Below are positions 5,344 through 63,860 of a stretch of 64,000 bases of DNA, in pieces. Source of the DNA: Allofranklinella schreckenbergeri. GTDB taxonomy: Bacteria > Pseudomonadota > Gammaproteobacteria > Burkholderiales > Burkholderiaceae_C. The notes below the pieces were generated by a model. That model did not search any database and had not been told where the DNA came from. It was given only the letters and a program-made list of their open reading frames with translations. Each line of letters opens with the position of its first letter. Positions within the stretch are counted from its first letter, which is position 1. Position numbers and translations under genes: made by a program. The stretch lies in assembly GCF_003703475.1 (NCBI RefSeq), contig NZ_RDQM01000002.1, positions 1-64,000 of the forward strand, in the 5' to 3' direction.

Positions 5344-5421
5344 ATTTTATCAATCAATAGGAAATAAAATCACCTTATTTTGGCATGTTGGCAATCAAGT
5401 TGATTTTCTTTTGATTGAAAT
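5344..5421 (+). repeat. Intergenic AT-rich repeat, copy A
   Basis: Begins TTATCAATCAATAGGAA, has the core CTTATTTTGGCATG and ends in TTTTCTTTTGATTG. It lies 18 nt after the copper-chaperone stop. The left arm is of the ATCAATAGG subtype. Confidence 0.85.
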
Positions 5422-5470
5422 ACCAGGTTTGGGCGCGGTGGGCCCGTCCGCCGTACGCGATCACAAGCAT

Positions 5471-5504
5471 GAAGAAAGGGGCTACAAGGCCCCTTTTTTT
5501 CTTC
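5471..5504. terminator. Bidirectional intrinsic terminator
   Basis: GAAGAAAGGGGC, a short loop, then GCCCC, seven T and CTTC. It is flanked by A-runs and T-runs and sits between the converging copper-chaperone gene and hslO. Confidence 0.85.
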
Positions 5505-5553
5505 ATAGGTCGTGGCCGTGGCGCGGCCACGGTTTGATGGGTTGCCGCGTGAA

Positions 5554-6546
5554 TCAGTGCAGCCCTTGCTGCGCCTCGGCGGCCAGGGGCGCGAACAAAT
5601 GGCCGATGTCCACAGCGTCAAACGCGTATTGCGCGCCGCAGAACTCGCAGCCGATCTCCAGCGGCTTGCCGTTTTCTTCCAGCATGGGCTGCACCTGCTC
5701 TTGTCCCAGGCCGCGCAGCATGTTGGCCACGCGCTCGCGGCTGCACTGGCAGGCGAAATGGGGCGTGGCGCCCTCGGTGTCGATGGCTTGCAAAGTCTCC
5801 TGCCAGAACAGGCGGCGCAAGATGGTGGCCGCATCCAGCTCCAGAAGCTCCTCGGTTTTCAGGCTGGCCGCCAGCGTGGCGATGCGGTTGAAATCCTCGT
5901 TCGCGCCCAGAGCATCCTGCGTTTGCGTGTCGTGCTGCTGGCCAGCCAGGTTGCCCTGGCCCTTGATGGGGATACGCTGCACCAGCAGGCCCGCAGCGAC
6001 CTGCTCGTTGGCGGCCAGCACGATCACGGTGTCGAGCTGCTCGGACTGCTGCATGTATTGCTGCAACACGGCGCTCAGCGAGGGCAGGCTTTGCCCTTGC
6101 GCATCGCGCAGCGCGACGATGCCCTGGTAGGCCTGCTGGCCGGGGCGCTTCTCGCCCGCATCCAGCGTGATGGCGCAGCGGCCCTGGCCGTGGGCATCGA
6201 GCATCGCGGGCAGGCTGGCATCGGCCGCAAGGCTTTGCGCAGCATCGGCGGCGAGCTGGGCGGTGGCGCGCAGGCGCAGGCTGGAATCGACCTCGGCCAC
6301 GGCCAGGCGCACCGGCCCATCGCCCTGGATTTGCAGGATGAGCGAGCCTTCAAAGTGGATGTTGGCCTGCATCAGCAGGCCCGCGGCAACCATTTCGCCC
6401 AGCAGGCGGCTGACGGCGGGCGGGTAAGCGCCGGTTTCGGTATTGGCGGCGCGGCGCTCCAGCACTTGTTGCCAGGGCGCTTGCACGCGGACGATGGCGC
6501 CGCGCACGGGCAGCCCTTCAAAGAGGAATTTTTGCAGTTCGGTCAT
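5554..6546 (-). CDS. hslO: Redox-regulated chaperone Hsp33
   Basis: A 330-aa cytoplasmic holdase that is switched on by oxidation and prevents aggregation of unfolding proteins. The C-terminal zinc-binding redox switch is plain: CQC (in FACQCSRERV), then about 30 residues later CEFC, giving the family CXC-X(27-32)-CXXC pattern. The N-terminus (TELQKFLFEGLPVRGAIVRV) matches the family start, so the ATG at 6546 is used. Length is close to the usual 290-330 aa. It faces a bidirectional terminator at its 3' end. Confidence 0.95.
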   Translation of the reverse strand: MTELQKFLFEGLPVRGAIVRVQAPWQQVLERRAANTETGAYPPAVSRLLGEMVAAGLLMQANIHFEGSLILQIQGDGPVRLAVAEVDSSLRLRATAQLAADAAQSLAADASLPAMLDAHGQGRCAITLDAGEKRPGQQAYQGIVALRDAQGQSLPSLSAVLQQYMQQSEQLDTVIVLAANEQVAAGLLVQRIPIKGQGNLAGQQHDTQTQDALGANEDFNRIATLAASLKTEELLELDAATILRRLFWQETLQAIDTEGATPHFACQCSRERVANMLRGLGQEQVQPMLEENGKPLEIGCEFCGAQYAFDAVDIGHLFAPLAAEAQQGLH

Positions 6547-6725
6547 GGTTTGGGGCAGGGAGAGCAGCCCTTGGAAAGTTGGAAAGCCTTGCCCATATCG
6601 CGCCGCTGGGGGTGGTTTTCAAGCCGGGCGGGCATGGGGGGCAGATGTGCCAAAGGCTTGAAGCGGCCCAAAGTGGTCAGAGGCACTGCAAGTGGTCTGG
6701 AGTGAAGCAGAGCGGCCCCAAAACG

Positions 6726-6753
6726 CCTTCGCCTCGCAATGGCGAGGCGAAGG
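6726..6753. terminator. Strong hairpin, possible weak terminator
   Basis: CCTTCGCCTCGC and GCGAGGCGAAGG form a perfect 12-bp stem with a 4-nt loop. Only a short T-run (CGTTTT) follows, on the minus strand, so it would terminate the gamma-carbonic-anhydrase transcript weakly at best. Confidence 0.5.
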
Positions 6754-6763
6754 GAATGGGGAT

Positions 6764-6841
6764 TTATATATCAATAGAAATAATGATCTCCTGCCATCAT
6801 GCCAAAATAGGGTGGTTTTATTTCTTTTTGATTGGTAATTC
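6764..6841 (-). repeat. Intergenic AT-rich repeat, copy B (inverted)
   Basis: Read on the minus strand: arm ATCAAAAAGAAATAAAA, core CCCTATTTTGGCATGATGG, and a far arm that contains TATTTCTATTGATA. It lies about 38 nt beyond the stop of the gamma-carbonic-anhydrase gene. Confidence 0.85.
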
Positions 6842-9860: not shown

Positions 9861-9869
9861 ATATTGCTT

Positions 9870-9951
9870 ATTTTTTCTAATCAAAAGGAAAATTTTTATG
9901 CCTATTTCGGCATGATGGTATTAAAGTGATTTTTACCAATGATTGGAAATC
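9870..9951 (+). repeat. Intergenic AT-rich repeat, copy C
   Basis: Left arm TAATCAAAAGGAAAA, core CTATTTCGGCATGATGGTA, right arm TTACCAATGATTGG. It starts 10 nt after the sbcB stop. Confidence 0.88.
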
Positions 9952-12320: not shown

Positions 12321-12408
12321 AATTTAAAATTTCCATTCAAAGGAAAATTATATTTCCTTTTATCATGCCGAAAAAGGGTTGTTTTGTTTCCTTTGAATAG
12401 TAATTTTG
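12321..12408 (-). repeat. Intergenic AT-rich repeat, copy D (inverted)
   Basis: Minus-strand reading: TATTCAAAGGAAACAAAA, core CCTTTTTCGGCATGATAA, far arm TTTTCCTTTGAATGG. It sits beside the metY/maeB terminator. The arms here carry matching TTCAAAGGAAA variations on both sides, so base pairing is kept. Confidence 0.85.
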
Positions 12409-14947: not shown

Positions 14948-15024
14948 ATTGCAAATCAAAAGAATGAAAATCGGCGTGTTTCGGCAGATTGGGTTTAATT
15001 CATATTTTCTTTTGATTGGTTTTT
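14948..15024 (+). repeat. Intergenic AT-rich repeat, copy E
   Basis: Left arm GCAAATCAAAAGAATGAAAA, core GTGTTTCGGCAGATTGG, right arm TTTTCTTTTGATTGG. It ends 13 nt from the gatB stop. Confidence 0.85.
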
Positions 15025-20255: not shown

Positions 20256-20338
20256 ATTTTTTACAGATCAAAAATAAAACAAATCGTGCTGTTTCGGCAT
20301 GACTGTATTGAGGTGTGTTTTATCTTGATTTGAAAATC
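20256..20338 (+). repeat. Intergenic AT-rich repeat, copy F (inside the gat operon)
   Basis: Arm ACAGATCAAAAATAAAAC, core CTGTTTCGGCATGACTGTA, far arm TTTTATCTTGATTTGAAAAT. Its right edge runs into the gatC stop codon (complement of TCA at 20337-20339), so the repeat is transcribed within the gatC-gatA message. Confidence 0.85.
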
Positions 20339-25749: not shown

Positions 25750-25831
25750 GGATTTCAAATCAAAGAAAAATTCATTTGTTACTGGTTTTGCCATAGCATA
25801 TGTATTTATTTTCCTTTTGATTTATAATTTT
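25750..25831 (+). repeat. Intergenic AT-rich repeat, copy G (diverged)
   Basis: TTTCAAATCAAAGAAAAA, core TGGTTTTGCCATAGCATA, right arm TTTTCCTTTTGATTTATAA. The core is more diverged than in other copies but the arms are good. It lies between mrdA and metQ, in the likely leader of metQ. Confidence 0.75.
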
Positions 25832-28694: not shown

Positions 28695-28776
28695 CTTTTT
28701 ATCAATCAATAGGAATAAAAATCGCCTTGTTTCGGCATGGTGTGTATCAAGTGGTTTTTATATTGATTTGTAAATA
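28695..28776 (+). repeat. Intergenic AT-rich repeat, copy H
   Basis: TTATCAATCAATAGGAA, core CCTTGTTTCGGCATGG, right arm TTTTATATTGATTTGTAAAT. It ends 4 nt before the stop of the ABC transporter gene. Confidence 0.88.
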
Positions 28777-31997: not shown

Positions 31998-32079
31998 TAT
32001 TTTACAATTCAATAGGAATAAAAATAACCTTGTTTTGGCATGTTTGCCAATTGGTGGCTTTTCCTTTGATTGGATAATT
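31998..32079 (+). repeat. Intergenic AT-rich repeat, copy I
   Basis: TTACAATTCAATAGGAA, core CCTTGTTTTGGCATG, right arm TTTTCCTTTGATTGGATAAT. It ends 11 nt before the glycosyltransferase stop. Confidence 0.88.
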
Positions 32080-36381: not shown

Positions 36382-36478
36382 GCAGTGCTGCGGGGCATGC
36401 CGTGCGCTCGCAACGCCGCAGGGCGCGCCCCATCCGCTTCATGGCCCGTCACGCAAAGATCGTGAGCTGGGGTTCGGC

Positions 36479-38875: not shown

Positions 38876-39170
38876 GTTGGGTGGGCGTTTACGCCCACTG
38901 CTGTTGCGATGAGAAACCATGGATTTGCAATGCACCGCCGCCCGCAGCCGGGCAACTGTCAAAGTTTGTTATGAAAATACAAAAACTTAAGAGAGCTGAG
39001 GATACAGCACATTGTGCATCAGACAGAATAATGACAATCACGTGTGCTTTTGACAACAGGTGCGAAATAAGCGCACATGCTTCCTCTTTTCAGCAAAAAA
39101 ACATGCTGCTAGGATGCGTGTCAAGTTGTACATTTTGTTGCGCTATTTAACAGCGCAAGAAAGGTTGGAT

Positions 39171-40250
39171 GTGGTCTCAGCGAGATCTTTGTTTGCCCCA
39201 AGGCAAACGCCATTGGTGGGTATTGACATCAGCACTTCCAGTATCAAGCTTGTCGAGCTTAGTAGTGCGCGTGATGGCAAATTGACCCTTGAAAGGGCGG
39301 CTATTGAGCGCTTGGAAAAAGGGTGGGTCAATGAGGGAAACATCGAAAATTTCGATGAAGTGGCAGATGCTTTGCGAAGAGTCGTGAAAAAAAGCGGCTC
39401 GCGTACAAAACAAGTGGCTTTGGCCTTGCCCCCTTCGGCCGTGATTACACGAAAAATCGTACTGCCTGCCGGGCTTTCTGAAGAAGAATTGGAAATTCAG
39501 GTTGAATCGGAAGCGAGTCACTATATTCCGTTTTCTTTGGATGAGGTAAGTCTGGATTTTTGTGAAATTGGCCCATCCAAAAATTCAAGCGATGATGTTG
39601 AAATACTAATTGCCGCCTCACGAAAGGATAAAGTTGAGGATCGGCAGGGCTTGGCAGAAGCTGCTGGCCTGAAGGCGGTTATTCTCGATGTCGAGTCTTT
39701 TGCTTCGAGGTTGGCAGTAATGCGCCTTGCCAAGGCATGGCCCAAAACATCAGAGCAGCCTATTGTGGCTTTGTTTGAAATTGGTGCGTCGAATAGCACT
39801 TTGATGATTCTCCAAGGTGAGGAAATTCTTTTTGAACGCGATCAGTCTTTTGGTGGAGCGCAATTAACGCAATCCATTGCAAGGCATTATGGAATTTCCT
39901 TTGAAGAGGCAGAAAACAAAAAGCGTGCAGGTGAAATGCCGGAAGACTATGCTACTGCCGTGCTACGGCCTTACGTCAATAGTCTGACGCAGGAGATTAG
40001 CCGGGCGTTGCAATTTTTCTTTACCAGTTCTCCCTACAACTCAGTCGATCGCATATTGTTGGCAGGTGGTACGGCTATAGTGAATGGCTTGGCCGCTGCT
40101 GTCACGCAAACTACTGAAACGGCATGCCAAATAGCAAGCCCATTTGAAGGTATGGAGATGGGTGGAGGGGTTCGCATGAAATCTGTCATGCGAGAGGCGC
40201 CAAGCTACTTGACAGCATGCGGCCTTGCATTGCGGAGGTTTGACGAATGA
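39171..40250 (+). CDS. pilM: Type IV pilus assembly protein PilM
   Basis: A 359-aa cytoplasmic actin-like protein that binds the PilN tail. Visible are LVGIDISTSSIKLVEL, KQVALALPPSAVITRKI and ILLAGGTAIVNGLAAAV. I use a GTG start at 39171 because AAAGG lies 9 nt upstream and the family begins just before the LVGIDIS block. First gene of a tight pilMNOPQ operon, in clearly AT-richer DNA than the neighbouring ponA. Confidence 0.93.
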   Translation: MVSARSLFAPRQTPLVGIDISTSSIKLVELSSARDGKLTLERAAIERLEKGWVNEGNIENFDEVADALRRVVKKSGSRTKQVALALPPSAVITRKIVLPAGLSEEELEIQVESEASHYIPFSLDEVSLDFCEIGPSKNSSDDVEILIAASRKDKVEDRQGLAEAAGLKAVILDVESFASRLAVMRLAKAWPKTSEQPIVALFEIGASNSTLMILQGEEILFERDQSFGGAQLTQSIARHYGISFEEAENKKRAGEMPEDYATAVLRPYVNSLTQEISRALQFFFTSSPYNSVDRILLAGGTAIVNGLAAAVTQTTETACQIASPFEGMEMGGGVRMKSVMREAPSYLTACGLALRRFDE

Positions 40251-40843
40251 TCAGGATCAATTTGTTGCCGCATCGTGAAGCGGCGAAGAAAGCGCGAAAA
40301 GAAAAGTTCATGCTGTCTGCGGCCCTTTCTGCGCTTGCCGGGCTGGGGATTGCAGGTATTATTTATTCCTATTTTCAGGTTTTGATTTCCGATCAGGAAA
40401 GTGCCAATCGAATGATTGAGCAGGAGAATGCGCGGCTAAAAGTGCAAATTAAAGAGGTTAATAATATTGAAGCAGAAATTGCCGCTTTGAAAGCGCGCCA
40501 GCAGGCAGTTGAGAATTTGCAATCGGAGCGGAACTTGCCCGTCGATTTGATGAATCATGTCATCAGGGAGGTTCCCAATGGATCCTATGTCACGTCTTTG
40601 AACAAGACTGATAAACAGGTCGCCTTGCAGGGTATGGCGCAATCCAATCAAACAGTTTCGGATTTGCTGAGAAATATTGATAAGAATATGCCGTGGGATT
40701 CCAGGGCGCAACTTATTGAGACAAAAGCGACCGATATTGATTTGGGTGGAGGCAAGAAAAGGCAAGTTTATGGATATGCGATGAACTTCCGTTTGGATAA
40801 GCCGGGGGCGGAGGAAGATGATAACAATGTGCCTATCAAATAA
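40247..40843 (+). CDS. pilN: Type IV pilus assembly protein PilN
   Basis: A 198-aa bitopic inner-membrane protein: MIRINLLPHREAAKK (the short cytoplasmic INLLPHR motif that binds PilM), one membrane segment (AGLGIAGIIYSYFQVLI) and a periplasmic coiled coil and fold. Overlaps pilM (ATGA). Confidence 0.94.
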   Translation: MIRINLLPHREAAKKARKEKFMLSAALSALAGLGIAGIIYSYFQVLISDQESANRMIEQENARLKVQIKEVNNIEAEIAALKARQQAVENLQSERNLPVDLMNHVIREVPNGSYVTSLNKTDKQVALQGMAQSNQTVSDLLRNIDKNMPWDSRAQLIETKATDIDLGGGKKRQVYGYAMNFRLDKPGAEEDDNNVPIK

Positions 40844-40858
40844 TTGGCAGGAGGGCGT

Positions 40859-41503
40859 ATGAAAGATTGGGCATCTCAATTTCGACAAGCCAGCGGCCGA
40901 GATCCATGGTTGTGGCCTATTTTGCCAAGAATTGCTTTGTTCATTGCGATTGCTATCGCTGTTGCTGTGCTTGCTTGGTTTTTCTACCTCACTTCTTTTA
41001 AGGAGGAACTGGAAGCTGCGCAAGCAAAAGAGGCTTCATTAAGGTCGGACTTCTCTCGTGACTATAAAAAAGCGATTAATCTGGAGGCCTTGAAGAAGCA
41101 GAAAGAGCAAGCTATCCAATACGTCAGTTTATTAGAAAAGCAGCTTCCCAATAAAGCTGAAATGGATGCGCTGCTGTCCGATATCAACCAAGCTGGTATC
41201 GGGCGAGGTTTGCATTTTGAGTTGTTTAAACCTGGAGCATTTCAGATTAAAGATTATTATGGTGAGCAGCCGATTGATATTGTGGTTACAGGGAACTATG
41301 ATGCAATTGGTGAATTTGCTTCGGATATTGCGCACTTGTCCCGTATTGTTACTATAGGCAATATGCATGTAACCAAAGACTCCAAGGATATTTCTAATGA
41401 TCGTCTTACAATGAAGGCGGTAGCGAAGACATATCGTTACTTGAGTCCTGATGAGCAAATTGAGCAGGCCAAGGAGAAAAATAATAAAGGAGGGAAAAAA
41501 TGA
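40859..41503 (+). CDS. pilO: Type IV pilus assembly protein PilO
   Basis: A 214-aa bitopic protein with one membrane segment (ALFIAIAIAVAVLAWFFYL), a coiled coil and the C-terminal fold that pairs with PilN. The ATG at 40859 has GGAGGG upstream; an earlier TTG start in frame is weaker. Stop overlaps pilP (ATGA). Confidence 0.93.
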   Translation: MKDWASQFRQASGRDPWLWPILPRIALFIAIAIAVAVLAWFFYLTSFKEELEAAQAKEASLRSDFSRDYKKAINLEALKKQKEQAIQYVSLLEKQLPNKAEMDALLSDINQAGIGRGLHFELFKPGAFQIKDYYGEQPIDIVVTGNYDAIGEFASDIAHLSRIVTIGNMHVTKDSKDISNDRLTMKAVAKTYRYLSPDEQIEQAKEKNNKGGKK

Positions 41504-42027
41504 GAAATAGAATAAGATTTTTTGTGCTCTTGGGAGTGTGTGCTAATTTGCTCGGCTGTGTGAGTTCCAGGCAGGAGGAGGTGGCAGCTTGGATGGCTCA
41601 GGAGAAAAGCAAGGCGGTTCCCAAAATTGCGCCATTGCAAGAGCCTGGTGTTTTTTATCCCCTTTCATATGAGAGAGGGAATGCAGAGGATCCTTTCGCC
41701 TTCGAAAAGCTTGCTAGGGTGTTTGCAGATGCCAAAAAAGGAGGCGCTAATTTAATGGATATTCACGATAAGCGGCGCAGGGAACCCCTGGAAGCCTATC
41801 CGATTGATTCTATAAAGATGGTAGGATTTTTGGAAAAATCAGGCCGCCCAACAGCCGTACTTGAAGTGGATAAGCACCTTTATCAAGTAGTGGCTGGGAA
41901 TTACATTGGTCAAAATTTTGGAAAGATTGAACAAATTTCAGAGACTCGCATTGATTTAAAGGAAGTGGTGCAAGATGCCACTGGTGAATGGGTGGAACGT
42001 TCGACGGTGCTTGAGTTGCAAGAGTGA
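41500..42027 (+). CDS. pilP: Type IV pilus lipoprotein PilP
   Basis: A 175-aa lipoprotein with signal and lipobox (FFVLLGVCANLLGC, cleavage before Cys) and the PilP domain (REPLEAYPIDSIKMVGFL, ... YQVVAGNYIGQNFGKIEQI). It links PilNO to the secretin PilQ. Upstream GGAGGG supports the ATG at 41500. Confidence 0.94.
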   Translation: MRNRIRFFVLLGVCANLLGCVSSRQEEVAAWMAQEKSKAVPKIAPLQEPGVFYPLSYERGNAEDPFAFEKLARVFADAKKGGANLMDIHDKRRREPLEAYPIDSIKMVGFLEKSGRPTAVLEVDKHLYQVVAGNYIGQNFGKIEQISETRIDLKEVVQDATGEWVERSTVLELQE

Positions 42028-42040
42028 AGGAGATTACAAA

Positions 42041-44149
42041 ATGAAACAGCGTTCTTTGCTTGCGAATTCCATATTGTTGGGATTTATTTCGTGTTTTAGT
42101 GTTGCTTCATGGGCTGCGGATATTGTTTCTATCAATGGAATGCACCAAAACGGGCGCGAGGTCGTGCAAATTGAGCTGAATGAGCCAATTGATTTTGACC
42201 CTGTAGCATTTCTGGTGCAGTCCCCTGCGAGAATTTCTTTGGATTTTCCCGGAGTTGGGGTTGTCGCTGGTCGAAAGCATATTGATGTTAACCAAGGAAA
42301 TTTGCGATCAATTAATGCAGTTGAGGCAGGTGATCGCTCCAGAGTTGTTTTGAGTTTACGGGAAATCGGCTCTTATCAAATCCACAAGTCTGGAAACATG
42401 GTGACGGTGCAACTTGGTGATGCGCCGTCGGTCCGTCATTCGACCGAAGCGGTGAAGTCAAGCTCTCTATCGCGAGCGGAGGCAATAGAAAAAATCGACT
42501 TTCGGCGTGGAATGAATGGCGTTGGGCGAGTACTGTTGGACTTGCCCAGCGATAGCGTGGGTGTCGATGTCCGCCAAGAGGGTAAGAGAATTATTCTTGA
42601 AATACCCAATGTATCGCTCTCAGATGGCTTTAAAAATTATTTGGATGTGGCTGATTTTGGTACGCCTGTAAAATATATTCGGCCAAAGCAAACAAATAAA
42701 TCGACTGTTGTTGAAATTGAAGTTGAGGGTGAGTGGAGTCAAAGTTCTTACCAAGTCGGTAATCAGTATGTCCTGGAAGTGCACAAGGTCATTCCTGATC
42801 CCGGGAAGCTAACGCCTGGTGTTGGGTTTTCTGGTGAGAAGCTTTCTTTGAACTTTCAAAATGTTGATATTAGATCGCTTCTTTCGGTAATAGCGGATTT
42901 TACTAACTTCAATATTGTTGTTGCGGACTCCGTAAACGGGTCGTTGACACTTCGTTTGCAAGATGTTCCTTGGGATCAAGCCTTGGATGTTATTTTGAAC
43001 TCCAAGGAATTGGGTTACGAAAAAAATGGTAACGTTTTGTGGGTTGCTCCTAAAGATGAGTTAAACGAAAGGAGACAAAAAGATCACGAGGCGCGTTTGG
43101 CTTTGGAGAAATTGGAGCCGCTGCGAACCCAAAGCTTCCAGCTTAACTATGCGAGAGCAGAGAAAATCGCAGAGCAGTTGACACAAACGCAAGATCAAGG
43201 AAGCCAAGGTTCTCAAAGTGGCCGGTTTTTGACGGAGCGTGGATCTGCGATTGCGGAGCCGCGCACTAATCAGCTTTTTGTGACGGATACGCCCTCCAAA
43301 TTGGAGGAAGTGGTGAAACTCATTGCCGATTGGGATATTCCTGTAAGGCAAGTGCTGATTGAGGCGCGTATTGTCCAGGCCAATGACAGCTTTGGGAGGA
43401 ACCTCGGGGTTCGCTTGGGCATGTCCGATCAACGAGCTGAGCGCGGTGGCGATGGTGGTTACCACTTGGGAGGCGGCAACCGGGCTGTTTTTGGTGGCAC
43501 CTATGGGAATGTGCTCGTAGGCTCTGGCGCTGCAAATGGCACGACGGCAGCGGGACAGTTCTTTGATCTCGGTGCGAATGCTATCGGTTCTACCAGTGCG
43601 GCGAGCTTTGCGCTTTCCGTTTTCAACTCTGCAGCTAACAGGTTCTTGAATTTAGAGATTTCGGCTTTGGAATCTACTGGTGAAGGGCGGGTGATTTCCA
43701 GCCCACGAGTAGTAACCAGCGATCAGGTAAAGGCTTACATAGAGCAGGGGACGGAGCTTCCCTATGCTACTTCATCTCCCAGTGGCGGTACAACCGTCGA
43801 GTTCAGAAAAGCTGTCCTCAGTTTGGAAGTGACGCCTCAGATTACGCCTGAGGGTAACGTCATACTGAAATTATTGGTGAAGAAAGATAACCTTTCCGCG
43901 CACGGTCAAGGCGCTATTGATACCAGGAGGGTGAATACGGAAGTCCTGGTTGAAAACGGCGGGACAGTCGTTATTGGCGGTATTTTTGAACTGGATGAGA
44001 CGGTTTTGGAAAATAAAGTGCCTTTCTTGGGGGACTTGCCAATTGCAGGGAACTTGTTTAAGCGTAAGGAACGCAGTGCAAGCAAGAGTGAATTGCTTGT
44101 GTTTATTACGCCTAAAATTGTGACGGAACAAAATTCGATGCGCCGATAA
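42041..44149 (+). CDS. pilQ: Type IV pilus secretin PilQ
   Basis: A 702-aa outer-membrane secretin through which the pilus passes. It has a signal peptide (MKQRSLLANSILLGFISCFSVASWA), two AMIN domains, an STN/N0 domain (LSLNFQNVDIRSLLSVIADFTNFNIVV), N1, and the secretin core (ALESTGEGRVISSPRVVTSDQVKAYIEQG, VIGGIFELDE, VPFLGDLPIAGNLFKRK). The ATG at 42041 follows AAGGAG. aroK-aroB, which often follow pilQ in betaproteobacteria, are absent. Confidence 0.95.
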   Translation: MKQRSLLANSILLGFISCFSVASWAADIVSINGMHQNGREVVQIELNEPIDFDPVAFLVQSPARISLDFPGVGVVAGRKHIDVNQGNLRSINAVEAGDRSRVVLSLREIGSYQIHKSGNMVTVQLGDAPSVRHSTEAVKSSSLSRAEAIEKIDFRRGMNGVGRVLLDLPSDSVGVDVRQEGKRIILEIPNVSLSDGFKNYLDVADFGTPVKYIRPKQTNKSTVVEIEVEGEWSQSSYQVGNQYVLEVHKVIPDPGKLTPGVGFSGEKLSLNFQNVDIRSLLSVIADFTNFNIVVADSVNGSLTLRLQDVPWDQALDVILNSKELGYEKNGNVLWVAPKDELNERRQKDHEARLALEKLEPLRTQSFQLNYARAEKIAEQLTQTQDQGSQGSQSGRFLTERGSAIAEPRTNQLFVTDTPSKLEEVVKLIADWDIPVRQVLIEARIVQANDSFGRNLGVRLGMSDQRAERGGDGGYHLGGGNRAVFGGTYGNVLVGSGAANGTTAAGQFFDLGANAIGSTSAASFALSVFNSAANRFLNLEISALESTGEGRVISSPRVVTSDQVKAYIEQGTELPYATSSPSGGTTVEFRKAVLSLEVTPQITPEGNVILKLLVKKDNLSAHGQGAIDTRRVNTEVLVENGGTVVIGGIFELDETVLENKVPFLGDLPIAGNLFKRKERSASKSELLVFITPKIVTEQNSMRR

Positions 44150-44180
44150 GCCAGCATGGAATAAATTAAGGAGTATGAAG

Positions 44181-46046
44181 GTGAAAAAAAAGGTACTTTC
44201 TCGTTGGATGTTTGCTGCATTACCAGCAGCTGCGCTTATGGCAGCTTGCGGTGGCGGCGGAGGAAGCGGGGGAACTGGCCCAGGTGGGGGAAATACCTCC
44301 AAAACGGAGATCTTTCTGCGTGCAGAAAAGTCCGAGCTGCCGTTGAATTTGGCCAAACTCCAACCGGGTGTGATTTGGAACTACAGCGGTAGAGGGAAGA
44401 ACTCTCCCTATACGACGTCTTTGACGGTTGAGGCAAAGGTCGACGGTCGCTTTATTCCATCCTCCGGGGATAAGGATGTCTTTTCCTGTTCCTTGGATGG
44501 GGCAGGGATAGAGGTGGGAACGCTTTATTACTTGGATGGTAAAGAAGAGCACCAGGTTGAGGTGGATGCTGGAAATGGTGAGAAAGTGAAGGTGCCGGGC
44601 GCTTTCCGATCGATTGCGCTGCCTTCGTTTGGCGGGATGGCGACTTTCCATTTCCATGGCAGAGATGCGACGGCAGGCGAAGCGACGATTTCGTGCTCGT
44701 ACACCGATCCTCGTGATAATCAAGAGCGCACGGCGGCGACAAAGATTCGTGTGGGGCCTAGAGAAGCAAATAACACCAACCCCTCGGTGGACTATATCGA
44801 AAGCACGAGTACAGGGAATGTGGGGTATTTGCATACCCAAGGTTCGCAAAACAATACGCAATTGCTGCTGAATGTCAAAGTCTGGAATGACTTGGATCAG
44901 CCTGTTGCCAATCCGCCTGCGGGGGTGAGTAACCTTTATGCGCGTATTGTGGGCAGCTACAACGATGCCAGCCGAGTGGCGAAATTGAGGGGCGTTGGTC
45001 CAACCGTTTCGGGTGGTACAGGTTCGACGATTGCCGTTTCTACAATCAGCGGTTTGGCGACTTTCTCTGTGACGAGTGGTCAATATGAAGGGCCGATTCT
45101 GATTGAGTTTATTGCAGACCGTGCAGATAACAATGTGTCCAACGGCATTGTGGAGCCTGTCAGCAATCTCACCGTGGTGTATGCGTTGCATGAGCCGCCG
45201 CCTTCTTTTATTCCGCCGCTTTCGATTCTGCCAGGTCAGCAGTTGAAAGGGTATTACATGCAGCCATTCATGGGTGCGCTGACTCTGAACGGATCTGGTT
45301 TGCCACCTCATAACTGGCGTCTGATTGATGGCAGCACGTTGCCGGATGGTTTGACTTTGAAACCCAATGGCGTGATCAGTGGCGTGCCCACTCGCTTGGT
45401 GAAAGATCACACCTTTAGGGTGGCTGTGGTGGATAGCACCAATAAATATGCGCCATGGCGTAGCAACCAGGTTGCAACGGGATCGGCAGTTATTTCCATT
45501 GAGGAATCGCCTTTCACGCCGCACATTGCGGAATGTGGGAATGGAACCGATGTGTGTGAGTTGAAGTCGCCTGCTGTAGTGGGGTCGGATTTTGTGTATC
45601 TGTTCACGGGAGCAGGAGGCGATGGTCATTACACATGGGATTCCGTTCCAGAATCTTCAGAAGATCAGAAAATTCATAAGTTCTTGAGGTTCAACAAAGA
45701 AACGGCCACTTTATATGCGGACCATGGTGACGTCACAGAAGATTTGCTGACTTGCAAGAAGAAGGAAAGTTCTGGAGGGAATTCTGGTCAGCAGCCGGGA
45801 GCACAGCAACCGGGGACGCAGCAGCCGGGAGCACAGCAACCGGGGACGCAACAGCCGGGAACACAGCAACCAGGAACGCAACAACCAGGAGCGCAACAAC
45901 CGCAGTCGCCTACATGGACTTATGAGGAGCGTTCTTATGACTTGATCATCCAAGTGAGCTCTGCGGGTATCACAAAGAACCAAGTGGTTCGTGTCACAGT
46001 GACTCCCAAGAACCCAGGGGAGGAATGTTCGGGGCCTCTGAATTAA
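44181..46046 (+). CDS. Surface lipoprotein with QQPG(A/T) repeats, downstream of pilQ
   Basis: About 621 aa. A lipoprotein signal (LPAAALMAACGGGGG) gives a lipid-anchored protein with a Gly-rich linker. There is an Ig-like He_PIG-type segment (LPDGLTLKPNGVISGVPTR) and seven tandem QQPG(A/T) units at 45789-45893. Start: a GTG at 44181 has AAGGAG at 7 nt, whereas the ATG at 44175 lies only 1 nt after that motif, so I prefer the GTG. It follows pilQ by 31 nt and could be cotranscribed; a terminator follows. Function unknown; cell-surface or pilus-linked adhesion is a guess. Confidence 0.8.
   Translation: MKKKVLSRWMFAALPAAALMAACGGGGGSGGTGPGGGNTSKTEIFLRAEKSELPLNLAKLQPGVIWNYSGRGKNSPYTTSLTVEAKVDGRFIPSSGDKDVFSCSLDGAGIEVGTLYYLDGKEEHQVEVDAGNGEKVKVPGAFRSIALPSFGGMATFHFHGRDATAGEATISCSYTDPRDNQERTAATKIRVGPREANNTNPSVDYIESTSTGNVGYLHTQGSQNNTQLLLNVKVWNDLDQPVANPPAGVSNLYARIVGSYNDASRVAKLRGVGPTVSGGTGSTIAVSTISGLATFSVTSGQYEGPILIEFIADRADNNVSNGIVEPVSNLTVVYALHEPPPSFIPPLSILPGQQLKGYYMQPFMGALTLNGSGLPPHNWRLIDGSTLPDGLTLKPNGVISGVPTRLVKDHTFRVAVVDSTNKYAPWRSNQVATGSAVISIEESPFTPHIAECGNGTDVCELKSPAVVGSDFVYLFTGAGGDGHYTWDSVPESSEDQKIHKFLRFNKETATLYADHGDVTEDLLTCKKKESSGGNSGQQPGAQQPGTQQPGAQQPGTQQPGTQQPGTQQPGAQQPQSPTWTYEERSYDLIIQVSSAGITKNQVVRVTVTPKNPGEECSGPLN
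45789..45893 (+). repeat. Seven 15-bp tandem repeats coding QQPG(A/T)
   Basis: Units of the form CAGCAGCCGGGAGCA alternate with near-identical variants, in frame, coding QQPGA or QQPGT. A partial eighth unit follows. Such arrays change copy number by slippage without breaking the frame. Confidence 0.92.
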
Positions 46047-46102
46047 GTCTGCCGGGTTGAGGCTTTCCATTTTGAAAAAATTGGGAGTCTCTTTGATAAA
46101 AG

Positions 46103-46138
46103 CAAGCTGCTTGTTGAAAACGAGCAGCTTGTTTTTTT
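46103..46138 (+). terminator. Intrinsic terminator after the lipoprotein gene
   Basis: CAAGCTGC and GCAGCTTG form the stem, with seven T after it. Its T-run ends directly before the first possible ATG of the MFS gene. Confidence 0.88.
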
Positions 46139-47389
46139 ATGGGAAACAATAATTTTTTGAATACTATGAATCGACGTTTATCGATGACACAGGTCTTGCT
46201 CTGTGGCGCAATGGTTGTCACTCTGTCTATGGGGGTGCGGCACGGGTTTGGTCTGTGGCTGTTGCCGATCACCATGGAAATGGATTGGTCGCGGCAGGAT
46301 TTTTCCATTGCACTGGCCATCCAGAATTTGGCCTGGGGATTTTTTGGCGTTTTGGCCGGTATGGCCGCAGATCGTTATGGCGCTTTTCGTGTTTTGTGCG
46401 TGGGCGCGTTGAGCTATGGGGTGGGGTTGTGGGGGATGGCCTATGCGCCCACTCCTTTGCTTTTCTCTTTATTCGCGGGTGTGCTGTTGGGGTTGGCGCA
46501 ATCGTGCACGACGTATGCCGTGATTTATGGCGTGATCGGCCGTCAAATCGCTGTGGAGAAACGATCCTGGGCGATGGGCGTGACGGCTGCAGCAGGTTCT
46601 TTTGGCCAGTTTCTCATGTTGCCTGTGGAAGGAAAGCTGATTGATGTGCTGGGCTGGCAAGATGCGCTGGTGGTTTTGGCCGTGGTGGTTTTGGCGATTA
46701 TTCCCCTGGCGCTGGGATTGCGTGAGCCGGGTGTGCATTCCAGAAAATCATCGGCACTTTTCGGTGGGCAAGAACAAACGGTGAGAGAGGCTTTGCGTGA
46801 GGCGTTTACGTATCGCAGTTTTTTGATGCTGACGGCCGGGTATTTTGTATGCGGCTTTCAAGTGGTGTTTATTGGGGTGCATATGCCCAGCTATTTGAAA
46901 GATATGCAAATGCCTGCGCATGTGGCCACTTATTCGCTGGCCTTGATTGGCCTTTTTAATGTGGTGGGGTCTTATATTGCAGGCTGGTTGGGACAAACGA
47001 TTGCCCGCCGTAAAATTTTGGCGTTTATTTACAGCGCGCGCGCGGTTGTGATTGCCATATTTTTGATGGTGCCGATCAGCTCGGCCAGTGTGTATATTTT
47101 TTCGGCAGTGATGGGAATGCTTTGGTTGTCCACAGTGCCCCCCACCAATGCGATTGTGGCGCAGATGTTTGGAGTGCGGCATTTGTCGATGCTGGCGGGG
47201 ATTGTTTTTCTAAGTCACCAGATTGGTAGCTTTTTGGGGGTTTGGCTGGGCGGTTATCTCTATGACTCTACGGGGAGTTACGATGTGGTCTGGTATATTG
47301 CGATTGCGTTGGGAGTGTTTGCTACTTTGATGAACTTGCCGATTGATGAAAAACCAGTGCACAGAGTTTCTCCGATTCAGGCTGCTTAA
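46139..47389 (+). CDS. MFS transporter
   Basis: A 416-aa major facilitator protein with about 12 membrane segments. The loop between segments 2 and 3 has the family-A-type motif GMAADRYGAFR. Halves are visible, with a central cytoplasmic loop around SRKSSALFGGQEQ. The substrate cannot be told from sequence; organic-acid carriers of the oxalate/formate type look similar. Start uncertain: the first ATG touches the terminator T-run at 46138, and ATGs at 46166 or 46184 may be the true start. Followed by a 44-aa membrane protein. Confidence 0.85.
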   Translation: MGNNNFLNTMNRRLSMTQVLLCGAMVVTLSMGVRHGFGLWLLPITMEMDWSRQDFSIALAIQNLAWGFFGVLAGMAADRYGAFRVLCVGALSYGVGLWGMAYAPTPLLFSLFAGVLLGLAQSCTTYAVIYGVIGRQIAVEKRSWAMGVTAAAGSFGQFLMLPVEGKLIDVLGWQDALVVLAVVVLAIIPLALGLREPGVHSRKSSALFGGQEQTVREALREAFTYRSFLMLTAGYFVCGFQVVFIGVHMPSYLKDMQMPAHVATYSLALIGLFNVVGSYIAGWLGQTIARRKILAFIYSARAVVIAIFLMVPISSASVYIFSAVMGMLWLSTVPPTNAIVAQMFGVRHLSMLAGIVFLSHQIGSFLGVWLGGYLYDSTGSYDVVWYIAIALGVFATLMNLPIDEKPVHRVSPIQAA

Positions 47390-47404
47390 GTGGTGGAGGG
47401 AAGC

Positions 47405-47539
47405 ATGATGGATAAAAAATCGCTGAAGAAATGGGGTGTGGGGGCTGCGGTCTTTGTTTTGCTGTTATTGGTTTTTGGGCTTTATGTCGATCGGGATTTG
47501 ATGGTCCGATTTGCAGAGCAATTGTGGGCGTGTTTTTAA
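47405..47539 (+). CDS. Small single-span membrane protein (44 aa)
   Basis: ATGATG with a good GGAGGG upstream opens a frame of 44 codons: a basic N-terminus (MMDKKSLKKWG), a hydrophobic segment (VGAAVFVLLLLVFGLYV) and a charged tail ending LWACF. It is 15 nt after the MFS stop and 19 nt before the glutaredoxin-like gene, so it is probably cotranscribed. It may be a small partner of the transporter; no family is recognised. Confidence 0.6.
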   Translation: MMDKKSLKKWGVGAAVFVLLLLVFGLYVDRDLMVRFAEQLWACF

Positions 47540-47558
47540 TCTCTTTGGAGGATTGGGT

Positions 47559-48173
47559 ATGAGAAATTTAACCGTCTTTTCAGCATGCTTGGGCATGGTT
47601 TGCACTGCATTTTTTTCACCGGCAATGGCGCAGGAGGTTTATCGTAGCAAGACGGCATCGGGCACCGTGATGTATTCGGATCGGGCTTTAACGCCTGGCG
47701 CGGCTTTAGTGAAAAAGGAAAAAGAGGCGTTATTGACGGATGGCGGTTTCCCTGAGGCATTGCAAAAATCGGTGCGGCGCTACCCTGTGGTTTTGTTTTC
47801 TTCGCCCGATTGCGCGCCTTGCGCACAAGGGCGGAAGGTGCTGAATCAAAGAGGAATTCCCTTCAAGGAGTACACGATTGCTACGGCCGAAGACCAAAGT
47901 GTCTTGGAGGAAAAAGGGATTGCCTCTTTGCCGCATTTGACGATTGGGCGGCAAGCCTTGCGTGGATTCAATGAGGCGCAATGGGAGCAATATTTGAACG
48001 CAGCGGGTTATCCGGCGACTTCGTTGTTGCCAGAGGGGTATCAAGCGCCGAAGGTGGAGCCATTGACTGTTTTGCAAAAGCAAGCTCAGAAGGAGGCTGC
48101 GCCTGCATCGGTGGATGGGCTGCCTGATGTGCCGAATTTGGATCCTTCCAATCCGACGGGTATTCGTTTTTAA
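47559..48173 (+). CDS. Secreted glutaredoxin-like protein with DUF4124-type N-terminus
   Basis: A 204-aa exported protein. Signal peptide (MRNLTVFSACLGMVCTAFFSPAMA), then VYRSKTASGTVMYSD (DUF4124-like), then a glutaredoxin domain with FSSPDCAPCAQGRKVL (CxxC), cis-Pro LPHLTIG and GFNEAQW. It probably exchanges thiols in the periplasm. The ATG at 47559 has GGAGGA upstream. Last gene of the AT-richer segment; a terminator follows. Confidence 0.87.
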   Translation: MRNLTVFSACLGMVCTAFFSPAMAQEVYRSKTASGTVMYSDRALTPGAALVKKEKEALLTDGGFPEALQKSVRRYPVVLFSSPDCAPCAQGRKVLNQRGIPFKEYTIATAEDQSVLEEKGIASLPHLTIGRQALRGFNEAQWEQYLNAAGYPATSLLPEGYQAPKVEPLTVLQKQAQKEAAPASVDGLPDVPNLDPSNPTGIRF

Positions 48174-48211
48174 AAATTGTTTTCAAAAATGAGCCCGATG
48201 GCTTGAAAAAC

Positions 48212-48247
48212 AAAAAGGGACTGGAGTGCCAACTCCAGTCCCTTTTT
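48212..48247. terminator. Bidirectional intrinsic terminator
   Basis: AAAAAGGGACTGGAGT, a 4-nt loop, then the exact inverse complement ending in five T. It lies between the glutaredoxin-like gene and prlC, which converge. Confidence 0.95.
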
Positions 48248-48338
48248 CAATGCCCTTTTTCAAAGCCTGCCGATGCTGAAGGCAGGCAATTTTCAATGGG
48301 AAATAGCCAATGAGTAATGAGCAGGCCGTTCATGTGGC

Positions 48339-50381
48339 TCAAGCAGGCTCGGCCATGCCTTGATGGCGCAGCAAGGCATCGAGTTCGGGCTCTCGGCCGC
48401 GGAAGGCTTTGAACGATTCCATGGCCGGGCGGCTGCCGCCGGCTTCCAGAATGCAGTGCAGGTAGCGTTGGCCGGTCTGGGGGCTGGCGCGGCCGGGTTC
48501 GGGGGCTTCTTCTTCAAAGGCGGCGTAGGCGTCGGCGCTGAGGACTTCGGCCCATTTGTAGCTGTAATAGCCTGCGGCATAGCCGCCTGCGAAGATGTGG
48601 GAGAAGGCGTGGGGCGTGCGGCTGTAGGGGGCAGCGGGCAGCACGCTGACTTCGGCGCGCACTTGCGCCAACAGGGGCAGCACCTGAGGTTCTGGCGCCT
48701 GGTGCAGCAGCATGTCGAACAGCGCGAATTCGACCTGGCGCAGGGTTTGCATGCCGCTTTGGTAATTTTTGGCGGCCAGCATCTTGTCGTAGAGCGCGCG
48801 TGGCAGCGGCTCGCCGGTTTCGATGTGGGCGGTCATGTCTTGCAGCACGGGCCATTCCCAGCAGAAGTTCTCCATGAATTGGCTGGGTAGTTCGACGGCG
48901 TCCCACTCCACGCCGCTGATGCCGGAGACATCGCGCTCGTTGACCTGGGTGAGCATGTGGTGCAGGCCGTGGCCGAATTCGTGAAAGAGGGTGATGACGT
49001 CGTCGTGCGTGAGCAGGGCGGGTTGGCCTTGAGCGCCTGCGGCAAAGTTGCAGACGAGGTAGGCCACCGGGGTTTGCAATTGGCCGGTGTCGGGGCGTAG
49101 CCAGCGCCCGCGCATGTCGTCCATCCAGGCGCCGCCGCGCTTGCCGGCACGGGCGGGCTGGTCGAGGTAGAACTGGCCGATGAGTTGGCCGTCGCGCTCG
49201 ATGCGGAAGAATTGCACGGCGGGGTGCCAGACGGGGGCCTGATCGGGCAGGATGGTGACGTTGAAGAGCTTTTGCACGATGGCAAACAGCCCTTCGATGA
49301 CTTTGGGGGCCTGGAAGTAGGGCTTGATTTCCTGATCGCTGAAGCTGTAGCGGGCTTCTTTGAGCTTTTCGGAGATGAAGGTCCAGTCCCAGGGCTGGGG
49401 ATCGTCCAGTTGCAAATGCTCGCGGGCGTAGGCGCGCAGGTCGGCGGCGTCTTTTTCGGCGTAGGGGCGCGCACGGCGGGCGAGGTCGCGCAGAAACTCC
49501 ACGACTTGGGCGCCGGAGTTGGCCATTTTGGGGGCGAGGGAAAGCTCGGCGTAATCGGGGTAGCCCAAAAGCTGGGCTTCTTCTGCGCGCAGGCGCAGGA
49601 TTTCGTCGATGACGGCGCTGTTGTCCAGGTGTTGTTGCTCGGCCGGGGCGAGGTCGGAGGCGCGGATGGCGTTGGCGTGAAAGAGCCGCTCGCGCAGGGC
49701 GCGATCCTGCGCGTATTGCAGTACGGGCAGGTACACGGGCATTTTGAGGGTGAGGCGGTGACGCTCGGGCACGCCTGCGGCCTGTGCGGCGGCGGCGGTG
49801 GCTTGCAGCACGTCGCCGGGCAGGCCGCGCACTTCTTCGGCGGTGGCGTCGTAGTGGTAGGCGTCGGTGGCGTCCAGCACGTTTTCGCTGAATTTTTGTT
49901 GCAGGGCGGCCAGGCGCTCCTGGATTTGGGCGAAGCGCTCGCGCTGGGCGCCTTGCAATTGCGCGCCGGAGAGCACGAAGCCGCGCAGGGCCAGTTCGAG
50001 GGCGCGGCGCTGCTCGGCGTTCAGGTTGGCGGGGTCGATTTGCTGGTATTTGGCGAACAGGGCTTCGCTGGCGCCCAGGCGCGTCCAGAACGCGGTGACC
50101 AGGGGCAGGGCTTCGTTATAGGCCTGGCGCAGCTCGGGGCTGTCGGCAACGCCGCTGAGGTGGTTGATGACGCCCCAGGATTTGGAGAGCCGCTCGGTGG
50201 CGACATCCAGCACTTTGGAGAGGGCCAGCCAGTCGGCGGGGAAGTCGGGCGCGGTGACGGTGGTCAAGGCGGCGTCGGCATCGGCCAGCAGGGCGGCGAT
50301 GGCGGGGCCAACGTGTTCGGGGCGGATTTGATCGAAAGCGGGGAGATCGGTGATGGAGAGCAGCGGGTTGGCGGAGGTCAC
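48339..50381 (-). CDS. prlC: Oligopeptidase A (M3 family)
   Basis: A 680-aa cytoplasmic zinc metallopeptidase that cleaves peptides up to about 20 residues, including signal peptides. The active site is HEFGHGLHH (HEXXH) at about residue 467, with the further Glu in the following SGVEWDAVELPSQ block. Length equals the E. coli enzyme (680). The N-terminus (TSANPLLSITDLPAFDQIRPEHV) is family-like. Confidence 0.95.
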   Translation of the reverse strand: MTSANPLLSITDLPAFDQIRPEHVGPAIAALLADADAALTTVTAPDFPADWLALSKVLDVATERLSKSWGVINHLSGVADSPELRQAYNEALPLVTAFWTRLGASEALFAKYQQIDPANLNAEQRRALELALRGFVLSGAQLQGAQRERFAQIQERLAALQQKFSENVLDATDAYHYDATAEEVRGLPGDVLQATAAAAQAAGVPERHRLTLKMPVYLPVLQYAQDRALRERLFHANAIRASDLAPAEQQHLDNSAVIDEILRLRAEEAQLLGYPDYAELSLAPKMANSGAQVVEFLRDLARRARPYAEKDAADLRAYAREHLQLDDPQPWDWTFISEKLKEARYSFSDQEIKPYFQAPKVIEGLFAIVQKLFNVTILPDQAPVWHPAVQFFRIERDGQLIGQFYLDQPARAGKRGGAWMDDMRGRWLRPDTGQLQTPVAYLVCNFAAGAQGQPALLTHDDVITLFHEFGHGLHHMLTQVNERDVSGISGVEWDAVELPSQFMENFCWEWPVLQDMTAHIETGEPLPRALYDKMLAAKNYQSGMQTLRQVEFALFDMLLHQAPEPQVLPLLAQVRAEVSVLPAAPYSRTPHAFSHIFAGGYAAGYYSYKWAEVLSADAYAAFEEEAPEPGRASPQTGQRYLHCILEAGGSRPAMESFKAFRGREPELDALLRHQGMAEPA

Positions 50382-50532
50382 GAATGGGCCTTTATGAGGG
50401 GGTTGAAGTGGGTGTGCGTTGGCGCGCCCATCATGTCCTGGAGGGCCAACACACCAGCGGCCCAGATACGGGCGCCGGGAAAGGTTTTCAATGGAAAGGG
50501 GCTGGAAAGCGCGGGAAAGGGCTTGTGAGTGC

Positions 50533-50613
50533 TATTTTTTATAAATCAAAAGGAAACAAAATTAACTTGTTTTGGCATGATGGTATTGAAGTGATTTTTA
50601 CTTTGATTGAATG
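50533..50613 (+). repeat. Intergenic AT-rich repeat, copy K
   Basis: TTATAAATCAAAAGGAAA, core ACTTGTTTTGGCATGATGG, right arm TTTTTACTTTGATTG. It is one of the closest copies to the consensus and ends 9 nt from the relA stop. Confidence 0.9.
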
Positions 50614-52986: not shown

Positions 52987-53073
52987 ATTTTATTTTCTAT
53001 ATCAAATGGAAAAATAATATGCTTGTTTCGGCAATATGGTATTTTTTATGATTTTCCTTTGATGTGTAATTTG
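52987..53073 (+). repeat. Intergenic AT-rich repeat, copy L
   Basis: TATATCAAATGGAAAAATAA, core GCTTGTTTCGGCAATATGG, right arm TTTTCCTTTGATG. It ends 11 nt from the stop of the DUF1631 gene. Confidence 0.86.
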
Positions 53074-59094: not shown

Positions 59095-59112
59095 TGGTGT
59101 ATTTGCAAACCT

Positions 59113-59181
59113 AGGGAAAAATCGATTCCACGTGGATATGCCGAAAAGGCATTGATTTTTTTCTTTTGGATTGTAAATTTT
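59113..59181 (-). repeat. Intergenic AT-rich repeat, copy M (inverted)
   Basis: Minus-strand reading: TTTACAATCCAAAAGAAAAA, core GCCTTTTCGGCATATCC, far arm ATCGATTTTTCCC. The far arm is diverged. It lies 18 nt after the rhlE stop. Confidence 0.75.
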
Positions 59182-60682: not shown

Positions 60683-60763
60683 TTTTGTAAATCAAAAAGA
60701 AAGAAAATGACCTTGTTTAGGCATGATGGTATTTAAATCAATTTTGCAATGATTGGTAATTTG
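60682..60763 (+). repeat. Intergenic AT-rich repeat, copy N
   Basis: GTAAATCAAAAAGAAAGAAA, core CCTTGTTTAGGCATGATGG, right arm TTTTGCAATGATTGGTAAT. It abuts the stop codon of the CorB-type gene. Confidence 0.88.
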
Positions 60764-63053: not shown

Positions 63054-63162
63054 TCGAGCTGTTGATCGCGCTTGCGAGCGGGGCCGCTGATGGGGTGGTT
63101 GATGGGGCTGGGCACAGCACAGCCCCCCGCCATCGCCCCAGCATTACGCAGTGAAACAACAC

Positions 63163-63190
63163 AAAAGGCGCTTTTCCAGGCGCCTTTTGT
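63163..63190 (+). terminator. Intrinsic terminator after the TonB receptor
   Basis: AAAAGGCGC and GCGCCTTTT form a perfect 9-bp stem with an 8-nt loop, then a T-rich tail (GTTTTTGG). Confidence 0.88.
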
Positions 63191-63208
63191 TTTTGGAGGA
63201 CGATTTGT

Positions 63209-63232
63209 TTGCTTTTTACTTCAAAAAAGCAA
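63209..63232. promoter_or_regulatory. Inverted repeat upstream of the orphan HTH gene
   Basis: TTGCTTTTT and AAAAAGCAA are separated by 6 nt, 37 nt before the ATG of the HTH gene. It could be a binding site for that protein. Confidence 0.45.
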
Positions 63233-63268
63233 TAATGTCGGCTTCATTCATGCACATTGGAGTTGGAA

Positions 63269-63724
63269 ATGCCAAGGACAGCAAAAGGATCGGGTGAATT
63301 GGAGCGCGCCCTGGAAGTGATTGCACAGGCCAAAACGGTGGAGCAGTTGCGCCAGGCGCAGGCGGTGGCCTTGCCGCTGATTTGCGGGTTGAACATGCAG
63401 GAGACGGCCAAGGTCATCGGTTGCTCGGTCGGCTGGGCCAGCCGTTTGCGCAATCGCTTTCTGGCCGGTGAGATGGTGGGCGATCAACCCACGCGCGGCG
63501 GTCGCCGCCGCCAGCACATGAGCGAGGCGGAAGAGCGCCAGATTTTGCAGCCCTACCTCGACCGCGCCCGCCAGGGCACGGCTGTGGATGTGGGCCAGGT
63601 CAAGGCCGATCTGGAGAAAAAACTGGGCCGCACGATTGCCCTGTCCACGGTGTACAACTTGTTGCGCCGCCACGGCTGGCGCAGGCCGGTGGCGGAAAAG
63701 CGCACGGCGTCCAGCGAGGAATAA
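63269..63724 (+). CDS. Orphan winged helix-turn-helix protein (transposase-N-terminus-like)
   Basis: A 151-aa basic protein. The first HTH is MQETAKVIGCSVGWASRLRNRFL; the second region is GRTIALSTVYNLLRRHGWRRP. This double HTH resembles the DNA-binding part of IS630-type transposases, but no DDE domain follows before the stop, so it is an orphan or a domesticated remnant. The ATG at 63269 has GGAG upstream. No symbol given. Confidence 0.72.
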   Translation: MPRTAKGSGELERALEVIAQAKTVEQLRQAQAVALPLICGLNMQETAKVIGCSVGWASRLRNRFLAGEMVGDQPTRGGRRRQHMSEAEERQILQPYLDRARQGTAVDVGQVKADLEKKLGRTIALSTVYNLLRRHGWRRPVAEKRTASSEE

Positions 63725-63777
63725 ACGCCTGTCCCCCAAAAGCGCTGGGCGGGCAGCGCATGGCTGGTGCCATTGGA

Positions 63778-63860
63778 TTTTTTTATCAATCAATAGGAAA
63801 AATAATTGCCTTGTTTAGGCATGATGGTATTGAATCCGTTTTTCTTGTAAGAAATTTTGC
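63778..63860 (+). repeat. Intergenic AT-rich repeat, copy O
   Basis: TTATCAATCAATAGGAAA, core CCTTGTTTAGGCATGATGG, right arm TTTTTCTTGTAAGAAATTTT. The right arm is diverged. It lies 53 nt after the HTH gene, facing the 3' end of tsaB. Confidence 0.85.

Follow-up and report, generated by a model that had tools for sequence, protein, structure and literature searches.

The window studied here, a 64-kb stretch of DNA taken as a whole, contains 15 copies of a repeat that in our reading belongs to a new, lineage-specific family of gene-end DNA elements, presumably bound by a protein, with both that protein and its function being putative. The family is characterized by two inverted AT-rich half-sites like TTWYMAATCAAWRGGAAA (and its reverse), which lie 58 bp apart and flank a TTTYGGCA core. 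The best explanation of the data, to which we give a probability of about 45%, is a lineage-specific, high-copy duplex-DNA element located at gene ends, probably read by a protein and kept by selection.

A profile built from the 15 copies recovered all of them in the window with E < 1e-13, a result that holds partly by construction, and placed 10 on the plus strand and 5 on the minus strand. Independently of the profile, the core pattern matched the window 5 times, against 0.01 matches expected by shuffling, and an ungapped repeat search returned overlapping families that grouped 9, 7, and 5 of the 15 copies. The family of related copies described in the first-pass annotation of this DNA was confirmed. 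The annotation would have abandoned the family at fewer than about 20 copies genome-wide. That limit was far exceeded, as the iterated profile found 208 copies in 864 kb (31%) of the source genome (G000; 2.82 Mb in 30 contigs, 99% complete), with none in a reversed-sequence control. Extrapolation from this sample gives ~ 680 copies per genome. Searches of the whole genome with short patterns gave 96 core matches (TTTYGGCATGATGGTATT, at most two mismatches) and 263 left-arm matches (TTAYMAATCAAWARGAAA, at most one mismatch), with none in the backwards control in either case, while model R1 matched 150 of the 150 candidates scored from 1615 first-look candidates. The mean A+T content of the elements was 71%, compared with 40% for the near flanks and 37% for the 864 kb, and the description of the copies as AT-rich islands in GC-rich DNA was borne out.

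The annotation had recognized no named family, and in limited searching of the open-access literature neither a name nor a Comamonadaceae intergenic or miniature inverted-repeat family matching this element was found. The window gave no Rfam match at gathering score, phages and plasmids gave matches only at E values of 0.2 or more, and viral contigs contained no exact core match. As far as the search extended, the family was abundant only in G000 and one relative, G005 (the metagenome-assembled genome JAUMYU01, 80% complete). Among 60 genomes (G000 and 59 relatives), where at most 77 of up to 3128 candidates were scored per genome at E ≤ 0.001, all 77 matched in both G000 and G005, two matched in G006 and one in G009; the scored candidates from six other congeners and all other genera gave none. 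Five congeners were also searched at E ≤ 0.1, with 150 of up to 405 candidates scored in each. Here, G006 gave four matches (two of them weak), G009 one, and G008 one partial match, and the scored candidates of G001 and G003 gave none. In a draw of 299 genomes of the taxonomic family that did not include G005, many core matches were present only in G000, and three other genomes had one each. An exact scan of 84,980 species genomes, a set that may leave out the source genome itself, returned eight stretches, all in the metagenome-assembled genome 'Comamonadaceae bacterium isolate S17M_Sa_44_sub'. No comparable repeat family stood out in 120 kb of G008 (where three 20-kb pieces were judged on their 20 largest families), 111 kb of G006, or 20 kb each of G002 and G003.

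Iteration of the profile led to the consensus TTacaaATCAAaagGAAAaaaAAtaaccttgTTTcGGCatgatggtaatgaagttaatTTTcctTTGATttG, in which three blocks are conserved: the left arm (columns 0–22), the core TTTYGGCA (columns 31–38), and the right arm (columns 57–71). The right arm repeats the left in inverted form, and 58 bp separate ATCAA from TTGAT. Spacing varied little, as the distance between the model ends was 72 nt in 118 of the 208 copies, 71 nt in 62, and 73 nt in 14. When the 12 copies without a recognizable core were dropped, TCAA was located 23 or 24 nt 5′ of the core in 173 of the remaining 196, and TTGA was located 33 nt 3′ of it in 127 and 34 nt in 13, with none found in 26. The arms are inverted in a single register, since 72% of cells pair in that register against 42 to 58% when one arm is slid. 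Solo left arms were rare, with only 4 of 221 matches lying outside elements in 31% of the genome (reversed control 0). The right-arm motif alone is too weak for such a test, as 38 of its 484 matches lay outside elements compared with 67 in the reversed control. At the outermost positions on the left, 96 to 99% of letters are A or T, with either of the two tolerated. At these positions the choice of A or T follows the replication strand as judged by local GC skew (T : A 61 : 10 leading, 35 : 34 lagging; p 9e-6), which suggests that an AT-rich shape rather than exact letters is needed there. The strand of the element as a whole showed no tie to replication orientation as read from GC skew (p 0.66).

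Gene context was assessed with our own simple hexamer-based calls (693 genes, with some starts and a few genes wrong). None of the 208 copies lay inside a called gene, and nine reached 3 to 25 bp across a gene boundary. With expectations scaled to the intergenic space available, 57 copies fell in convergent regions (27 expected), 136 in tandem regions (130 expected), and 15 in divergent regions (51 expected). Among intergenic regions of at least 90 bp, an element was present in 51 of 72 convergent, 123 of 289 tandem, and 14 of 85 divergent regions; in shorter regions the corresponding values were 3 of 24, 9 of 206, and 0 of 9. Copies in tandem regions lay a median of 17.5 bp from the stop codon upstream of them, and 102 of 136 were closer to that stop than to the next start. 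Neighboring copies less than 400 bp apart abutted at 79 to 102 bp, in mixed orientation, in 15 of 15 pairs (eight in G000 and seven in G005, some of the latter being orthologs of G000 pairs). A called intrinsic terminator accompanied 51 of 235 gene ends with an element and 62 of 264 without, and because these frequencies are about equal, no swap of terminator for element was seen. At the 51 ends bearing both, the terminator lay before the element in 28, after it in 15, and inside it in 8.

The relationship between copies in G000 and their counterparts in G005 was studied at orthologous sites. Over 72 genes, divergence between the two genomes was 3.9% for coding DNA and 8.1% for fourfold sites. 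An element was present at 43 of 45 sites for which both flanks lay in the G005 stretches read. Of the two exceptions, one carried a weak copy visible at E 0.002 and the other lay in a non-aligning region. In the reverse comparison, on an overlapping set of sites, 42 of the 43 G005 copies (from 120 in all) whose two flanks lay in the G000 DNA read were kept in G000. The annotation had called the family fixed or spreading and proposed comparing positions across strains. This near-identical presence upholds fixation in one lineage and gives no sign of spreading, the closest pair among 118 equal-length copies being 89% identical. Across the 45 pairs, divergence was 9.3% in arms and core (190 of 2053 columns) compared with 24.9% in the spacers (288 of 1158; Fisher p 1.6e-31), with the left and right spacers at 23.9% and 25.3%, and 17.3% in the flanks (378 of 2187). 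Indels were rarer in the element (51 columns, with 3211 aligned) than in the flanks (121 columns, with 2187 aligned), and the more informative a column was among paralogs, the less it diverged between orthologs (rho −0.85). Because the copies are stable in G005 and their arms and core diverge less than spacers and flanks, the comparison suggests that they are under selection in place. Since the divergence of the blocks (9.3%) is no lower than that of fourfold-degenerate coding sites, the claim of constraint is made only relative to neighboring intergenic DNA.

Some conversion between copies is possible and would confound this measure of conservation in place. Among the 36 pairs with one clear partner and a recognizable core, the ortholog was the best G005 spacer match in 22 and another G005 spacer was better in 14; in one pair, the best paralog spacer matched at 19 of 20 positions and the ortholog at 10. 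However, right-spacer differences were not two-peaked (mean 4.5, variance 5.8) and block conservation persisted where the right spacer had changed little, which argues against conversion as the main cause. In the 12 pairs with at most two right-spacer changes, blocks diverged by 6.9%, left spacers by 19.8%, and flanks by 13.0%, and the pattern also held in the 21 pairs with at most four.

The first-pass annotation had also proposed that matched arm changes keep a stem and that the elements may act on RNA ends, as an RNA element would if its transcribed arms formed a stem protecting or processing 3′ ends in the manner of NEMIS or ERIC. Copies do follow stop codons, and the 15 copies, when folded one at a time, were on average more stable than their shuffles (z from −5.2 to +0.2), which would be the case for any inverted repeat. 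However, matched changes proved no commoner than chance. In the covariation check, performed like the pairwise identity comparison on the 118 gap-free copies of exactly 72 nt among the 208 (the other 90 being left out), the arms did not covary (z 0.3), and pairing was no higher than the arm columns, which vary enough for the test, give by themselves. For the 15 window copies, 231 of 500 shuffles paired as well and RNAalifold predicted no pairs, and mutual information over 217 aligned matches gave no arm-to-arm signal among its top pairs. An inner hairpin in the core was also tried in 12 registers and was not convincing (highest z 2.4 with 39% paired). Action on RNA ends was not supported either, as 68 copies had the same orientation as the upstream gene and 68 the opposite although the core is asymmetric, and the window gave no Rfam match. 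An RNA element is therefore considered very unlikely. Because they lack covariation, the arms seem to be read independently. Both carry the same ambiguities (Y, M, W) independently, a pattern that two separate protein half-sites would show, and the element is better described as duplex DNA than as an RNA-folding repeat. Look-alike intrinsic terminators or promoters, to which the gene-end position would also point, deserve hardly any credence, as a G+C-rich hairpin and T-run are not a shared part of the element. Similarity limited to AT-rich terminator or promoter signals, which the annotation had named as grounds for dropping the family, is largely excluded by the shared core and fixed spacing.

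The main rival is an extinct MITE, in which the inverted arms were the binding sites of a transposase that multiplied the element once the lineage had separated from its congeners and later disappeared, leaving idle copies whose gene-end position reflects purging elsewhere; purging of harmful insertions could by itself give that position bias. Terminal inverted repeats, a MITE feature, are present in the form of arms inverted in one register, and close copies abut in mixed orientations as described above. At the syntenic gaps of congeners, the element was missing for all 12 copies compared in G008 (two of which fall in a single gap), all four in G006, and the one in G002. In 15 of 17 comparisons the relative had the shorter gap, and at two sites the gaps of G006 and G008 agreed with each other at 43 to 98 bp, the G000 gap there measuring 167 to 219 bp. 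At one locus (L188, L187), before a gene that we take from its translation to be aconitase-like, G006 DNA is 97% identical to that of G000 and carries two elements. The G008 DNA is 98% identical to G006 on one side of this locus and 83% on the other, and lacks about 140 bp with the elements, so that a shorter element-free site adjoins DNA nearly identical to the element-bearing G006 locus. By inference, a congener may receive elements together with the DNA around them, and those that reached G006 would not have multiplied there. The same locus has a second, G+C-richer degenerate element beside the normal one, common to G000, G005, and G006. Against an extinct MITE, no target duplication was seen (the best of 676 offset 3-mer pairs occurred in 10 of 208 copies, 3.4 being expected), although it could have been lost in old copies. 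In addition, no pair among the 118 equal-length copies exceeded 89% identity, there were almost no solo left arms and almost no presence/absence differences from G005, and arms and core are conserved in place while the spacers are not. We regard an extinct MITE as possible, if on the unlikely side.

A further alternative is an uptake or recombination signal kept by molecular drive, as in the case of neisserial DUS, with transformed DNA carrying copies being favored. In the part of PMC2397512 that deals with the matter, DUS are conserved in place inside more divergent flanks, and the element resembles DUS/USS in this respect, as well as in being lineage-specific and high-copy in permissive DNA. 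Tracts exchanged with congeners exist, and the copies were spaced slightly, though not significantly, more evenly than a gene-position null (p 0.07, 0.10, and 0.21 for three contigs). On the other hand, the element, with its eighty bases and three blocks, greatly exceeds DUS and USS in length, called genes contain no copy, and there is no shared motif, DUS10 and the USS core occurring in none of the 208 copies and the 5-base DUS core in 8. An uptake signal is accordingly thought very unlikely.

The assignment to a REP, ERIC, NEMIS, or MITE-like family stood insofar as the element is high-copy, intergenic, and of that general size class; the stem with compensatory changes and the RNA-end action did not. 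For REP/BIME elements, which occur in E. coli and Pseudomonas, passages of PMC1525189 and PMC8266576 put the number in E. coli at about 600 and describe the copies as intergenic, located at gene ends, and frequent between convergent genes. The element is like REP/BIME in its high copy number, its intergenic location at gene ends, and its convergent preference. Unlike REP/BIME, it has no GTAG-headed palindrome (GTAG was found anywhere in only 10 of 208 copies), no hairpin kept by pairing, as its arms do not covary, half-sites 58 bp apart, and no IHF consensus as a shared feature (it occurred in 1 of 208 copies, IHF being the one REP/BIME binder, beside gyrase and DNA polymerase I, whose consensus was looked for). 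The REP-associated Y1 transposase (PF01797), detected in 5 of 10 genomes searched, gave no match in either G000 or G005 (99 and 80% complete, respectively). By this analogy, the element would work like REP/BIME boundary sites without being a member of that family, three defining features of which are absent. It shares with MITEs, including Correia/NEMIS, its size, inverted terminal arms, and intergenic location, and differs in having no target duplication or near-identical copies, in having arms and core conserved in place, and in that no partner was found in the 31% of the genome read. The likeness to ERIC, compared by description only, is that of an intergenic inverted repeat of similar size, whereas the window lacks any Rfam match.

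Under the preferred reading, of a duplex-DNA element kept by selection, a DNA-binding protein or small complex would recognize core and half-sites together along a single stretch of duplex. Once bound, the element may serve as a barrier or topological boundary close behind stop codons, chiefly where genes converge, and be effective from both sides, and so may do with an unrelated sequence the job proposed for REP/BIME (gyrase and IHF binding). The copies would date from a single episode of spread, probably through transposition or copying, that followed the separation from congeners, with selection keeping them thereafter. A fuller version, which we consider doubtful, is that ~ 680 boundary or insulator sites arose in one bacterial lineage, that a putative protein reads two half-sites 5.5 helical turns apart together with the core, and that the sites mark transcription-unit ends free of orientation and are selected site by site. 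If true, these sites would amount to a gene-boundary code that a bacterium acquired once closely related species had diverged. Bacterial repeats of this size tend to be treated as MITEs or as RNA hairpins. In the present case, close relatives that have or lack the family, orthologous copies whose constraint can be measured, and conserved half-sites at near-fixed spacing allow one to ask directly whether a repeat family has come to serve as DNA boundary sites across a genome, and which protein recruited it.

With regard to possible readers, G000 has three HU/IHF-family genes, as do most congeners. Its single H-NS-like match (L114:17149-17478; G000 C1 near 77.4 kb) keeps the TWTGRGKPP motif, and the protein is a candidate reader of the elements, HU/IHF being another. 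In the only match of both G000 and G005, TWTGRGKPP is preceded by KVPPRF, and congener H-NS-like proteins mostly have KVAxKY-like forms at this position. Consensus sequences for USS, DUS10, Chi, parS, matS, high-affinity H-NS, and DnaA sites each occurred in at most 1 of the 208 copies.

Within the window, copy 1 (5346–5423, plus strand) has left arm, core, and right arm and is kept in G005 with conserved arms, and copy 2 (6761–6839, minus) lies 40 bp past a stop codon and is likewise kept. Several copies closely follow identifiable genes: copy 3 (9873–9950, plus) lies 12 bp past the stop of an exonuclease gene (PF08411), copy 5 (14948–15021, plus) 16 bp past that of gatB (PF02934), copy 8 (28698–28775, plus) 5 bp past that of an ABC transporter gene (PF00664/PF00005), copy 11 (50538–50611, plus) 11 bp past that of a RelA/SpoT gene (PF04607), and copy 12 (52995–53071, plus) 13 bp past that of a DUF1631 gene; copy 9 (32001–32078, plus) is 12 bp past a stop codon. 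Copy 4 (12328–12400, minus) lies between convergent genes for a PF01053 enzyme and a malic enzyme/PTA protein and adjoins an apparent intrinsic terminator, and copy 15 (63782–63850, plus), with a degenerate right arm, also lies between convergent genes. Copy 6 (20260–20338, plus) is 53 bp upstream of an amidase gene (PF01425), copy 7 (25750–25827, minus) is the weakest of the 15, and copy 10 is at 36302–36375 (minus). The neighboring gene calls are uncertain for copies 13 (59101–59178, minus) and 14 (60684–60761, plus). Ten neighboring proteins were scanned and belong mostly to ordinary metabolic or housekeeping families, with one of unknown function.

At copy 8, no element was present at the syntenic site of G006, G008, or G002. 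The ABC transporter gene at window 28781–31303 is 97.5 to 98.6% identical in DNA to G006 and G008, and the DNA on the other side of the copy is about 77 to 81% identical to them; the tract, which ends 20 to 40 bp from the element, appears to reflect recent exchange between species. The window is free of elements from 36376 to 50537. The pilMNOPQ operon at 39060–44149 has a GC content of 0.43 to 0.48 against about 0.6 around it, and its fresh acquisition was ruled out because the G008 homologues are also low in GC (0.49 to 0.55). An open reading frame at 44175–46046 has no Pfam match and contains a 15-bp tandem repeat at 45759–45908; a homologue, 48% identical, follows pilQ in G008.
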